Part shown: positions 1 to 15,448 of the stretch, in pieces | Numbering within the stretch: position 1 is the first letter of the stretch | Layout: each line of letters starts with the position of its first letter | Origin: Candidatus Atribacteria bacterium | GTDB taxonomy: Bacteria; Atribacterota; JALVIU01 | DNA length: 18,318 nt | Direction: 5' to 3' | Assembly (NCBI GenBank): GCA_027028665.1 | Contig: JALVIU010000006.1 | Span: forward strand, 1-18,318 | The notes under the pieces: model-generated | Told to the model about the DNA's origin: nothing | What the model saw: only the letters and a program-made list of their open reading frames with translations | The model's database searches: none | Translations under genes and position numbers: made by a program

Positions 1-157
1 TCCCTTTAAGTTCTATTTCTCCTTCTTTGTGTAAAATAGTCACCTCAGAAAATAGATTGATAGGGGCAGATACTAAAAAGGATTTACCATTTATCTCTCC
101 CTGTATAAGCTCTCCACAGGTACCTGGTGAAAAAATAGTAAACTTATTAATCTTCAT
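1..157 (-). CDS. GHMP kinase, PduX-like (L-threonine kinase family), N-terminal fragment
   Basis: Only the first 52 codons are present; the gene runs off the left edge. It starts with ATG at 157 and the product begins MKINKFTIFSPGTCGELIQG. The PGTCGELIQG segment (residues 11-20), followed about ten residues later by a LVSAPI stretch, is the typical N-terminus of PduX-type GHMP kinases. In that family, PduX phosphorylates L-threonine for the aminopropanol arm of cobalamin synthesis; this assignment rests on the N-terminal motif alone, and the phosphate-binding GHMP loop lies outside the window. The start overlaps the last 11 bases of the ribonuclease Z gene in another frame, which suggests translational coupling and a shared transcript. 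The Shine-Dalgarno sequence is weak. It could also be another small-molecule kinase of the GHMP superfamily. Confidence 0.75.
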   Translation of the reverse strand, partial: MKINKFTIFSPGTCGELIQGEINGKSFLVSAPINLFSEVTILHKEGEIELKG

Positions 158-1058
158 AAGGTATCTCTAAGGTCATATAGTCCTTTGCAATAATGGTATT
201 TGGAAATATCTCTTTTGCCTTTGCAAGCAACATCTCTCCATCACTATATCTGGGAGATATATGAATAAGTAAGAGTTTTTTTACATTTGCCTCTTTTGCA
301 ATCCTTGCAGCATCCTTTACAGAAGAATGGCCTCTTTCTATGGCCATCACATCATCATCACCTGAAAACATACCATCATGCATAAGAAGATCTGCCTCTT
401 TTGCAAAATCTACCATTTCAGACATAGGATTAGTATCTGTTGCATAGACAACTTTTCTACCCTTTCGAGGAGGACCCATCACCTGGCCTGGATAAACTAT
501 ATTTCCATTGGGAAGGGTTACAGGATGTCCATCTTGAAGTTTTTTAAACAAAGGCCCTGGTTTTATCCCTAATTCTATTGCCTTTTCTGGATAAAATCTT
601 CCTGGTCTTTCTGCTTCTTCTATCTTATATCCAAGATTAAATATTATATGAGAAAGGGGCATTGCATATATGGAATATTCTTTACTTTTATAGATCTCTC
701 CACCTGTTACTTCATGTATTATAAGCTCATAATCCAACCTAAAATTCAGGTGTTTTTTCATATTATCCATAAATTCCTTCATTCCTGGAGGGGCATATAA
801 TTCTAAAGGTTTTTCTCGAGAAAATTGGGATAGGGTCATAAGAAGACCTGTGAGTCCCAATACATGATCCCCATGAAAGTGGCTTATAAATATCTTCTCA
901 AGTCTACCTGGCTTTATGTGAGATCGCATAATACGAAACTGAGTTCCTTCTCCACAATCAAAAAGAAATACCTCTCCATTTCGTTCAAGTGCAAAGGCAG
1001 GGAGGCCCCTGTATAGGCTGGGGACTCCACCACCTGTTCCAAGTGCTGTAAGTTTCAT
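147..1058 (-). CDS. rnz: Ribonuclease Z (tRNA 3' endonuclease)
   Basis: This 303-residue protein has the usual length for bacterial RNase Z, the zinc-dependent endonuclease that removes the 3' trailer of tRNA precursors. The zinc ligands are in the expected places: HFHGDH at residues 60-65, His137 (PLSH), Asp208 (ATDTNP) and His266 within HISPRY, with GHSS around residue 244 as well. The N-terminus, with LGTGGGVPS and then FDCGEGTQ, is also diagnostic. The start is ATG at 1058, nine bases after the argG stop. There is no convincing Shine-Dalgarno sequence, so translation probably depends on ribosomes arriving from argG. Its place at the end of an arginine operon has no obvious metabolic logic. 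The family assignment is secure. Confidence 0.96.
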   Translation of the reverse strand: MKLTALGTGGGVPSLYRGLPAFALERNGEVFLFDCGEGTQFRIMRSHIKPGRLEKIFISHFHGDHVLGLTGLLMTLSQFSREKPLELYAPPGMKEFMDNMKKHLNFRLDYELIIHEVTGGEIYKSKEYSIYAMPLSHIIFNLGYKIEEAERPGRFYPEKAIELGIKPGPLFKKLQDGHPVTLPNGNIVYPGQVMGPPRKGRKVVYATDTNPMSEMVDFAKEADLLMHDGMFSGDDDVMAIERGHSSVKDAARIAKEANVKKLLLIHISPRYSDGEMLLAKAKEIFPNTIIAKDYMTLEIPYED

Positions 1059-6590: not shown

Positions 6591-6626
6591 TAATAAAAAA
6601 ACTCGTCCCAAAAAGGGACGAGTTTT
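6591..6626 (-). terminator. Intrinsic terminator of the arg T-box leader
   Basis: On the minus strand, ACTCGTCCC (6601-6609 complement) pairs with GGGACGAGT (6615-6623 complement) around a five-base loop, with extra A-T pairs at the base, followed by a run of Us and then AUUA. Part of one arm is shared with the antiterminator, so the two folds exclude each other. Confidence 0.93.
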
Positions 6627-6787
6627 CTCGTGGTGCCACCCTACTTAAGGCAAAAGCCCACTTAATTGACACATTTTCTATATTTAGTTTATACCATCTT
6701 CGGTTCTCTTCATCTAAACTCTTTCAAGGACCTCTCAGCTAAAAGCCCCTCTCTGTATGAAAGAGATTTAGATTACTCTCCGATTTT
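6591..6787 (-). promoter_or_regulatory. T-box leader sensing uncharged tRNA-Arg (specifier AGA)
   Basis: This is a complete T-box riboswitch in the argC 5' leader. Stem I forms from 6758-6772 and 6713-6726 (TCTAAATCTCTTTCA against TGAAAGAGTTTAGA, with one bulged base). Its apical part contains AGAGAGGGG and CTGAGAGG. The specifier loop has GAGTAA on one side and GAAGAGAACC on the other. Using the usual pattern GAA-N-codon-A, the specifier is AGA (6705-6707), an arginine codon. The T-box proper, AGGGTGGCACCACGAG, lies around 6627-6642. It folds as AGGG/CCCT and ACGAG/CTCGT around the seven-base bulge TGGCACC, whose TGGC would pair with a GCCA tRNA end. Uncharged tRNA-Arg should favour the antiterminator and expression of argCJBDG. 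The class is certain; the specifier is read from the pattern. Confidence 0.95.
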
Positions 6788-6792
6788 TGAGG

Positions 6793-6821
6793 ATTATATC
6801 ATAAAATTATCTCAGATGCAA
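6793..6821 (-). promoter_or_regulatory. Promoter of the arg operon
   Basis: A TTGCAT -35 box (6816-6821) and a perfect TATAAT -10 box (6793-6798) are 17 bases apart on the minus strand. Transcription should start near 6786-6787, exactly where the T-box leader begins. The -35 box is only about 20 bases after the stop of the upstream binding-protein gene. Confidence 0.88.
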
Positions 6822-6840: not shown

Positions 6841-7968
6841 CTAAGGATTCACTGTTGTTACATATTTCCATGTACCATTTTCTACTTTTAAAACAACTGC
6901 ACTCTTTATAGCATTTCCGTGTTCATCTATATTAATTATACCTGTTGCACCTTCATATCCTTTGGTTTTTGCTATTTCGTCTCTTATCTTTACAGGATCT
7001 GTAGAACCTGCCCTATTAATTGCCTGCCATACCACCCCATATGCATCATAACCTAAAGCAGCAAGTGCATTTGGATCCTTATTATATTTTGCTTTATATT
7101 CCTCTATAAATTTTTTGCCATTTTCTGTAGTTGCAGCTTTTGGATCAAAATGGGTACTAAAGTAAAGTCCCTCTACGGCTTCTTTCCCAATCTGAAGAAG
7201 CTCTGGGGCCTGTGCTGCATCTCCTGCTAAAAATGGAGCTTTTATCCCTTGTTCTCTTGCCTGTTTGGCAAAGAGAGCAATCTCTGAGTAAAAACCTGGG
7301 ATAAATATAACATCAGCCTTTGCATTTTGGATACCGACAATTTGAGCCGTAAAATCTTGATCTCCAGATTTGTACTGTCCTATATATACAATAGATTTTG
7401 GATCATCTGTCAATTTTTTAAAAGAATCCATAAAGAACTTTGCCAGTGCTACAGAATAGTCATTTGCCTTATCAAACAAAACTGCAGCCTTTCTTGCTTT
7501 TAAATTAGATACAGCAAATTTTGCCATTACAAATCCTTGGAAATCATCTACGAAACAAACTCTAAATGCAAACTTTTTCCCTTGAGTTACTAATGGATTA
7601 GTAGCAGAAGGGGTAACAAAAGGCACTTTGTAACGCTCACATATAGGACCTACAGAAAGGGCATTTGGACTAATTATCGGGCCCAATATTACTGAGACCT
7701 TTTCCTTCCCTATGAGACGAGATGCTGCATTTGCAGCCTCTATCTTATCACTTTTATCATCCAATAGAATAAGATCGATCTTCTTACCGAGTACCTTAGG
7801 CTCTAGACTGTTTGCAAGGTCCAGGCCCTCTTTAGTCATCTGTCCAAAAGCAGATGCCATCCCAGTCATAGGGAATATTACACCTATTCTGACTACATTT
7901 TCACTGGCATTTGCAATACCTGCAAAAATGAAAACTGTAAGAAAAATAAATACAAAAATTCTTTTCAT
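6841..7968 (-). CDS. Periplasmic branched-chain amino acid-type binding protein (third, divergent copy)
   Basis: This 375-residue member of the LivJ/LivK family (type I periplasmic binding fold) would capture a ligand and deliver it to the LivHMGF complex. The signal peptide MKRIFVFIFLTVFIFAGIA ends near NAS/E, with no lipobox cysteine. The mature protein starts with VVRIGVIFPMTG, then KIDLILLDDKSDK and TNPLVTQGKKF, as in the two tandem copies (13072-15381). It differs widely elsewhere, lacks their shared CKTGDQD cysteine (KSGDQD here) and has a two-residue insertion. The start is ATG at 7968 with AGGAGG upstream. It lies 20 bases after the metallo-hydrolase gene, far from the other two binding proteins, suggesting a different ligand for the same transporter. 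The ligand is unknown. Confidence 0.92.
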   Translation of the reverse strand: MKRIFVFIFLTVFIFAGIANASENVVRIGVIFPMTGMASAFGQMTKEGLDLANSLEPKVLGKKIDLILLDDKSDKIEAANAASRLIGKEKVSVILGPIISPNALSVGPICERYKVPFVTPSATNPLVTQGKKFAFRVCFVDDFQGFVMAKFAVSNLKARKAAVLFDKANDYSVALAKFFMDSFKKLTDDPKSIVYIGQYKSGDQDFTAQIVGIQNAKADVIFIPGFYSEIALFAKQAREQGIKAPFLAGDAAQAPELLQIGKEAVEGLYFSTHFDPKAATTENGKKFIEEYKAKYNKDPNALAALGYDAYGVVWQAINRAGSTDPVKIRDEIAKTKGYEGATGIINIDEHGNAIKSAVVLKVENGTWKYVTTVNP

Positions 7969-13071: not shown

Positions 13072-14193
13072 CTATGGGTTTACAACGGTTACGAATTCAA
13101 ACTTTCCATTCTTTACAGTCTCTATTACTGCACTCTTTATAGCATTTCCATTTTCATCAATAGTAATAACACCTGTAACACCTTTAAAGTCTTTTGTAGC
13201 TGCTATACCATCTCTAATCTTTACTGGATCTAAAGATCCTGCACGTTCTATAGCGTCAAGAAGTATATAGTATGCATCGAATCCAAGTGCACCAAGTGCA
13301 TTTGGAGATTTATTAAATTTCTTATGATATATCTCTACATATTTCTTACCAAGCTCAGTACTTGCAGCCTTTTCATTAAAGTGTGTAGTGTAATACATAC
13401 CTTCTACTGCTTTTCCGCCTATTTCAATAAGTTGAGGAGCCTGAGCACCATCACCTGAGAGAAGTGGAGCATTTATGCCCATTTCTCTTGCCTGTTTTGC
13501 AATAAGTGCATCCTCTGTGTAATAGTTAGGGATATAGATAACATCAGGATTTTTTGCCTTAATTGTAGTAAGCTGTGCAGAGAAATCCTGGTCCCCAGTT
13601 TTACAAAAAGTCTTGGATACAATCTCTCCACCAAGGGCTTTAAAGTTTTTCTCAAAGAAATTGGCAAGACCTACACAATAGTCTTGTGCAATATCCACAA
13701 GTATAGCTGCTTTCCTGGCTTTTAAATTATTATATGCAAATTTTGCTGCAACTTTTCCCTGGAATGGGTCTATAAAACATGCACGGAAGATAAACTTTTT
13801 GCCCTGTGTAACAAGTGGATTTGTAGATGCTGGAGTAATTAAAGGAACTTTAGCCTTTTCAAATATTGGGGCGGCGGAAAGGGTATTAGAACTCGCAACA
13901 GCTCCAATGCCTGCCACTACATGTTCTTTTTCAATAAGACGGGATGCAGTATTTGCAGCCTCTACCTTATCACTCTTATCGTCAAGGAGTATAAGTTTTA
14001 CAGGCTTTCCGAGTACTTGCGGTCTTAATTCATTAGCAAGTTCAATACCTTCCCAAGTCATCTGACCAAATGCGGCAACAGGACCCGTCATAGGCAAAAT
14101 AACACCAATCTTTACCTCATCAGCTGCAAATGAAGTGGTTCCAAAAGTTAAAACCATTAAAGCTACTACTAAAAATAAAGATAATTTTTTCAT
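13072..14193 (-). CDS. Periplasmic branched-chain amino acid-type binding protein (second tandem copy)
   Basis: This 373-residue LivJ-family protein binds the substrate in the periplasm. The signal peptide MKKLSLFLVVALMVLTFG ends near SFA/A, with no lipobox cysteine. Landmarks are VKIGVILPMTGP, LLDDKSDKVEAANTASRL, TNPLVTQGKKFIFRACF and FCKTGDQDFSAQL. The reading frame extends 11 codons further upstream, but AAAGGAGGG precedes the ATG at 14193 and the signal peptide begins there. A consensus promoter lies immediately upstream (14226-14254). By hand count it is about 72 percent identical, without gaps, to the copy at 14260-15381. The two mature cysteines of FRACF and FCKTG are shared by both copies. 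The ligand is not determined. Confidence 0.94.
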   Translation of the reverse strand: MKKLSLFLVVALMVLTFGTTSFAADEVKIGVILPMTGPVAAFGQMTWEGIELANELRPQVLGKPVKLILLDDKSDKVEAANTASRLIEKEHVVAGIGAVASSNTLSAAPIFEKAKVPLITPASTNPLVTQGKKFIFRACFIDPFQGKVAAKFAYNNLKARKAAILVDIAQDYCVGLANFFEKNFKALGGEIVSKTFCKTGDQDFSAQLTTIKAKNPDVIYIPNYYTEDALIAKQAREMGINAPLLSGDGAQAPQLIEIGGKAVEGMYYTTHFNEKAASTELGKKYVEIYHKKFNKSPNALGALGFDAYYILLDAIERAGSLDPVKIRDGIAATKDFKGVTGVITIDENGNAIKSAVIETVKNGKFEFVTVVNP

Positions 14194-14225
14194 ATCTTTA
14201 CCCTCCTTTCTTGAATTTTGCCACA

Positions 14226-14254
14226 ATTATATATCTAAAAAAGTGGTTTGTCAA
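14226..14254 (-). promoter_or_regulatory. Consensus promoter of the second binding-protein gene
   Basis: A perfect TTGACA (14249-14254) and a perfect TATAAT (14226-14231) are 17 bases apart on the minus strand, in the 66-bp gap after the upstream binding-protein gene. The second copy and livHMGF can therefore be transcribed independently of the first copy. Confidence 0.9.
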
Positions 14255-14259
14255 ATATT

Positions 14260-15381
14260 TTATGGATTTACAATTGTTACAAATTTGAATTTTCCGTCTT
14301 CTATTTTCTTTATTACAGCAGGTTTTACAGCGTTTCCGTTCTTATCAATAGTGATGGTTCCTGTTACACCTTCAAATCCTTTTGTCTGAGAGAGGGCATC
14401 TCTAATCTTTACTGTATCTAAAGAGCCTGCACGTTCAATAGCGTCAAGCACCATATAGTATGCATCAAAAGTAAGTGCACCAACTGTATTTGCAGCCTTA
14501 TTAAATTTCTTATGATAAACTTCCAAATATTTTCTACCCAATTCACTTTGTACAGCATTTTCATCAAAATGAGTGGTGAAGTATAAGCCGTTTACAGCAT
14601 CTCCACCTACATCAAGAATTTCAGGAGCATCTGCTGCGTCACCTGATAGTAAAGCAGCATTTATACCCATAACCTTTGCCTGTTTTGCAATAAGTGCATC
14701 CTCTGCATAATAATTAGGCATATAAATAAGATCTGGATTCTTTGCCTTAATTGCAGTAAGCTGTGCAGAGAAATCCTGGTCTCCAGTTTTACAAAAAGTC
14801 TTGGATACAATCTCTCCACCAAGGGCTTTAAAGTTTTTCTCAAAGAAGTTTACAAGACCTACACAATAGTCTTGAGAGATATCTGTAAGAAGGGCTGCCC
14901 TTTTAATTTTTAAATAGTCTATAGCAAATTTTGCTGCAACTTTTCCCTGGAATGGGTCTATAAAACATGCACGGAAGATAAACTTTTTGCCCTGTGTAAC
15001 AAGTGGGTTTGTAGCATATGGACTCATCATAGGAATCTTGGCCTTTTCAAGAATAGGAGCAGCAGACATGCTAAGGGAACTTGTAAGTGGTCCAATTACT
15101 GCCACTACATGTTCTTTTTCTACAAGACGAGATGCAGTATTTGCAGCCTCTACTTTATCACTCTTGTTATCGAGGAGTATAAGTTTTACAGGCTTTCCGA
15201 GTACTTGCGGTCTTAATTCATTAGCAATTTTTAGACTTTCATTTGCCATTTGACCATATGCAGCAAATGGCCCTGTCATAGGAAATATTACACCAATCTT
15301 TACTACGTCTTCTGCAAATGCTATGCCTGTAATAAGTACTAAAGACAATACAAAAAGGACAAAAATAATACTTCTCTTCAT
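14260..15381 (-). CDS. Periplasmic branched-chain amino acid-type binding protein (first tandem copy)
   Basis: This 373-residue LivJ-family protein has a signal peptide (MKRSIIFVLFVLSLVLI, cut near AFA/E) and no lipobox. The reading frame is open for 16 more codons upstream, but the ATG at 15381 has AAAGGAGGT nine bases ahead and begins the signal peptide, so I use it. It shares the family's VKIGVIFPMTGP and TNPLVTQGKKF segments. It differs from the second copy in patches likely to line the ligand cleft (for example SSLSMS for SSNTLS and MMSPYATN for LITPASTN), so the two may bind different amino acids. It has its own promoter (15420-15448) and heads the transport cluster. Confidence 0.94.
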   Translation of the reverse strand: MKRSIIFVLFVLSLVLITGIAFAEDVVKIGVIFPMTGPFAAYGQMANESLKIANELRPQVLGKPVKLILLDNKSDKVEAANTASRLVEKEHVVAVIGPLTSSLSMSAAPILEKAKIPMMSPYATNPLVTQGKKFIFRACFIDPFQGKVAAKFAIDYLKIKRAALLTDISQDYCVGLVNFFEKNFKALGGEIVSKTFCKTGDQDFSAQLTAIKAKNPDLIYMPNYYAEDALIAKQAKVMGINAALLSGDAADAPEILDVGGDAVNGLYFTTHFDENAVQSELGRKYLEVYHKKFNKAANTVGALTFDAYYMVLDAIERAGSLDTVKIRDALSQTKGFEGVTGTITIDKNGNAVKPAVIKKIEDGKFKFVTIVNP

Positions 15382-15419
15382 ATTTATATTACCTCCTTTC
15401 GTAAAAAATTTATTAGGAA

Positions 15420-15448
15420 ATAATATCATAATACTATATTAATGTCAA
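15420..15448 (-). promoter_or_regulatory. Promoter of the first binding-protein gene and transport cluster
   Basis: TTGACA (15443-15448) and TATTAT (15420-15425) are 17 bases apart on the minus strand, starting nine bases after the stop of the glycosyltransferase/TPR gene. No terminator separates the two transcription units. Confidence 0.85.

Follow-up and report, generated by a model that had tools for sequence, protein, structure and literature searches.

How arginine biosynthesis is switched on and off in a bacterium of the phylum Atribacterota is the question raised by an 18,318-nucleotide stretch of DNA (the window), in which a structured leader precedes an arginine operon. Behind it, on the minus strand, lie five genes named by curated models, argC (TIGR01850, 5545..6567), bifunctional argJ (TIGR00120, 4357..5529), argB (TIGR00761, 3478..4344), argD (TIGR00707, 2279..3469) and argG (TIGR00032, 1068..2264), followed by a ribonuclease Z gene (147..1058, minus strand) that is likely the last member of the operon, as judged from a 9-base gap. 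All six share one orientation and are separated by 8 to 15 bases, and the model-based names agree with the initial annotation, which had proposed a T-box before a biosynthetic arg operon. Elsewhere in the host genome, argF is on a separate contig, where it immediately follows another open reading frame and has no T-box upstream, while argH is represented only by below-cut-off matches. The assignment of the contig to this genome, a draft assembly of 1.79 Mb and 413 contigs with 89.9% completeness and 2.8% contamination, rests on assembly binning. The window also contains three paralogous genes for substrate-binding proteins of the branched-chain amino acid type (6841-7968, 13072-14226 and 14260-15429, minus strand), which surround one ABC transporter gene set.

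A covariance-model search, by which the initial annotation had suggested that its T-box be checked, returned RF00230 as the sole Rfam family at gathering score in the window. The match spans 6797..6611 on the minus strand and covers the full model (positions 1-219) with an E-value of 6.8e-20 and a score of 94.2 bits, compared with a gathering cut-off of 93 bits. The leader folds at -65.5 kcal/mol, compared with an average of -45.2 for shuffles (z -5.1), and none of 200 shuffles equalled it. By reading, an exact consensus -10 hexamer, TATAAT (6793..6798), which does not come from the promoter scan, is preceded at a distance of 17 bp by a -35-like hexamer, TTGCAT (6816..6821), a weak match that is absent from that scan; these and all features of the leader RNA (6611..6797) are on the minus strand. 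According to the Rfam alignment and reading, Stem I retains the AGUA/GAA specifier loop with AGUA on its 5' side (6774..6777), the AG bulge ACAGAGA in its distal part (6750..6756) and the apical loop motif AGCUGAGAG (6732..6740), and the Stem III region GUGGGCUUUUGCC follows at about 6649..6661. The T-box sequence AGGGUGGCACC (6632..6642), with the bulge UGGC at 6638-6635, opens an antiterminator (6614..6642) with a computed stability of about -7.7 kcal/mol without tRNA, and an intrinsic terminator of 15 pairs and -22.1 kcal/mol occupies 6595..6629. Since both hairpins require the segment CUCGUCCC at 6622-6615, which is common to them, they are mutually exclusive. The window contains a single T-box/terminator module.

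Stem II with its IIA/B pseudoknot is an optional feature of T-boxes, whereas a K-turn at the base of Stem I occurs in nearly all of them. In the Rfam alignment of the window leader, several pairs in the Stem II region are non-standard, deletions remove most of the IIA/B (F-box) part, and the consensus CgaUGA of the lower Stem I/K-turn is unmatched at the sequence level, reductions that probably explain why the score barely exceeds the cut-off. The earlier statement that every canonical part is present is therefore an overstatement, since Stem II, IIA/B and, judged by sequence, the K-turn are weak or missing. Such weakness in Stem II and lower Stem I, together with the marginal score, could be taken to mean that the T-box has decayed into a fixed attenuator. 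This seems very improbable, as the specifier, loop E motif, AG bulge, apical loop, Stem III, T-box and terminator are all kept, argC leaders of two other families in the phylum (f2 and f5) still carry AGA despite being similarly reduced, and glycine T-boxes without Stem II are functional (PMC7583486).

The specifier loop reads GAUGAA-G-AGA-A-CCG, giving the register GAA-N-AGA-R-CC, in which AGA (6705..6707) precedes A6704 and the CCG helix (6703-6701). The preferred specifier frame comprises bases 2-4 from the loop end (PMC7778990), and AGA occupies this frame, an assignment based on the Rfam alignment, on reading and on the register in relatives. The host genome encodes a tRNA-Arg(UCU) with G73, whose GCCA end is complementary to the bulge UGGC, so that a single tRNA is complementary to both specifier and bulge; its G73 was read from an acceptor end that ARAGORN printed one base early, with U8 and A9 placed by eye. 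Both predictions made from the leader at the outset, an AGA specifier and, from the bulge TGGC, a tRNA-Arg with a G discriminator, are supported by these data, AGA being found at 6707-6705 in the canonical register and conserved before argC in relatives.

The conservation of this register was assessed in a set comprising the host and 49 further Atribacterota genomes, none of them listed as closer than phylum. T-boxes are present in all 50, and were absent from all 11 outgroup genomes searched. Of 28 argC loci retrieved from phylum genomes, a T-box precedes argC in 21; four of the other seven are truncated at the end of a contig, and in three argC lies, by reading, directly behind a carB- or dapA-like gene. 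The argC T-boxes of the relatives were missed at the Rfam gathering score and found in E-value mode. In 17 of the 21 leaders, AGA stands directly before a purine and the helix (by eye), its position being kept while the flanking bases change. In the remaining four, all from f2, AGA is displaced outwards by two or three bases; their canonical frame reads AAA in most and their bulge is UGGC, to which the host tRNA-Lys(UUU), with A73, does not fit (a host tRNA, not one of the f2 genomes' own). As a separate observation, about 560 bases containing repeat-like sequence separate the end of the argC T-box in genome G016 from the argC gene downstream.

The same comparison bears on whether the T-box might instead read a glutamate codon one base out of register and sense tRNA-Glu. 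The loop reads GAAGAGAACC, with GAG and GAA one base either side of AGA, glutamate is the precursor of arginine, and the host tRNA-Glu(UUC) also appears to have G73 by the same by-eye reading, compatible with UGGC. The GAG register, which had been put forward as the finding that could overturn the arginine assignment, was rejected because it requires tRNA-Glu(CUC), whose A73 in the host is mismatched to UGGC. For GAA the discriminator would permit pairing, but the relatives keep AGA while the GAA frame varies between GAA and GAG, and this register was likewise rejected. With AGA in the canonical place in 17 of 21 leaders amid variable neighbours, with the preferred frame (PMC7778990) giving AGA and with arginine genes downstream, glutamate sensing appears extremely improbable. 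Arginine specificity is supported by the AGA register, the G73 of tRNA-Arg(UCU), the arg operon downstream and the conservation of AGA before argC in other families.

On this sequence evidence, the leader is almost certainly a T-box riboswitch that acts on transcription and recognizes tRNA-Arg(UCU) specifically. By analogy with known T-boxes, from which its tRNA binding, charging sensing and switching are inferred, a shortage of arginine would leave tRNA-Arg(UCU) uncharged, its anticodon pairing with the specifier AGA and its 3' GCCA with UGGC in the antiterminator bulge. The antiterminator would thereby be held and the terminator blocked, allowing argCJBDG to be transcribed. The 3' end of charged tRNA could not dock, and the stronger terminator would halt transcription before argC.

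Arginine is one of several amino acids for which the host appears to use such elements, as four of its five T-boxes are for others. Two with the specifier CUC (Leu) precede ilvB- and ilvD-like genes (L001 and L004). A third (L002; contig C260, 2277-2533, plus strand) has the specifier UGG and the bulge UGGC, matching tRNA-Trp with G73, and the following gene encodes a substrate-binding protein, likely of a tryptophan transporter. The fourth (L005; contig C385, about 14037-14205, minus strand), a phenylalanine T-box (UUC) before pheS, has a transcription terminator, but its Stem I, only some 50 bases long, seems to lack both the AG bulge and the apical loop; a short Stem I has been described mainly for translational T-boxes (PMC7583486).

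The presence of a T-box at this operon raises the issue of the repressor ArgR. Domain searches for the ArgR C-domain and N-domain, which were positive in 8 or 9 of 14 control genomes, detected neither in the host, for which the initial annotation had suggested a genome search for argR, nor in any of the other 49 phylum genomes. An ArgR gene could sit in the missing part of the host draft genome, but hardly in that of all 50. From these genome sequences, the T-box appears to take the place of the usual arginine repressor throughout the phylum. An unrelated DNA-binding repressor might still exert the main arginine control and leave the T-box a secondary role, given that the regulator searches covered the ArgR family only; with ArgR domains absent phylum-wide and the T-box being the conserved element before argC, this arrangement is regarded as highly unlikely.

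Omp85 was detected in the host as well as in almost all other phylum genomes searched; its presence in the host makes a diderm envelope likely, in line with the earlier suggestion, and the host is probably diderm. The 16S primer rt1F of Atribacter laminatus RT761 (PMC7736352) has an exact match in phylum genome G016 (3.1 Mb, one contig), and the RT761 genome is 3.1 Mb in size (PMC11227167). This match identifies the phylum as Atribacterota; named hits to the host argC reach only about 52% identity. RT761 has been described as Gram-negative, with three membrane-like layers.

T-box switches are well known from Gram-positive bacteria, in which they have mostly been described. In Clostridioides difficile, the expansion of arginine T-boxes is said to have followed the loss of an earlier regulator, a view ascribed to Vitreschak et al. 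(2008). T-boxes of this organism precede argG CD1785, argC CD2034 and argH CD2500 (PMC11477304), an arrangement that resembles the window in having leaders before argC and other arginine-pathway genes but belongs to another phylum. Among Bacillota-titled argC loci, a T-box with the specifier CGC or CGU and the bulge UGGU immediately precedes argC in L067, L070 and L082, in contrast to AGA and UGGC in the window; at a further such locus, L061, the T-box motif lies on the other strand. AGA accounts for 24% of the specifiers in the arginine T-boxes catalogued so far (PMC7778990). With the RF00230/TBDB arginine class, the window leader shares a full-length match and AGA, whereas it shows a reduced Stem II, IIA/B and K-turn. 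The occurrence of T-boxes beyond Firmicutes, in which the initial annotation saw an interesting case of spread, has been on record since 2008 (PMC2494555), and in Atribacterota it is phylum-wide (50 of 50 genomes) rather than local. A search of the open-access literature found no paper that mentions both Atribacter and T-box, although subscription papers and databases may do so. Arginine T-boxes before argC and AGA specifiers are thus already known, and what seems new is their occurrence in Atribacterota, of which no description was found. The simple story of one operon recently acquired from Bacillota was rejected, given T-boxes in all 50 phylum genomes and argC T-boxes in several families, while an older transfer may have been the origin of the argC T-boxes.

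Eleven argC leaders of f2 and f5 (L159 and L162 to L171) differ from the single-module leader of the window: behind one Stem I they carry two T-box antiterminator/terminator modules in succession. The second bulge is located 100 to 220 bases after the first and has its own terminator, with no room for a Stem I in most; in L162, L163 and L165, the bulge reads UGGU in the first module and UGGC in the second. This architecture resembles that of partially tandem T-boxes, a known type whose mode of action has been described as unknown (PMC7583486). Taken together, the data slightly favour a scenario in which the AGA arginine T-box is the ancestral arginine control in the ArgR-less, diderm Atribacterota and has developed in f2 and f5 into a partially tandem switch, with one tRNA-reading Stem I governing both modules. 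The one- and two-module leaders behind a single Stem I would provide a natural set for testing partially tandem T-boxes. More broadly, these observations suggest that, outside the Gram-positive bacteria, a tRNA-sensing RNA may run the arginine regulation of a whole phylum in place of the usual repressor.
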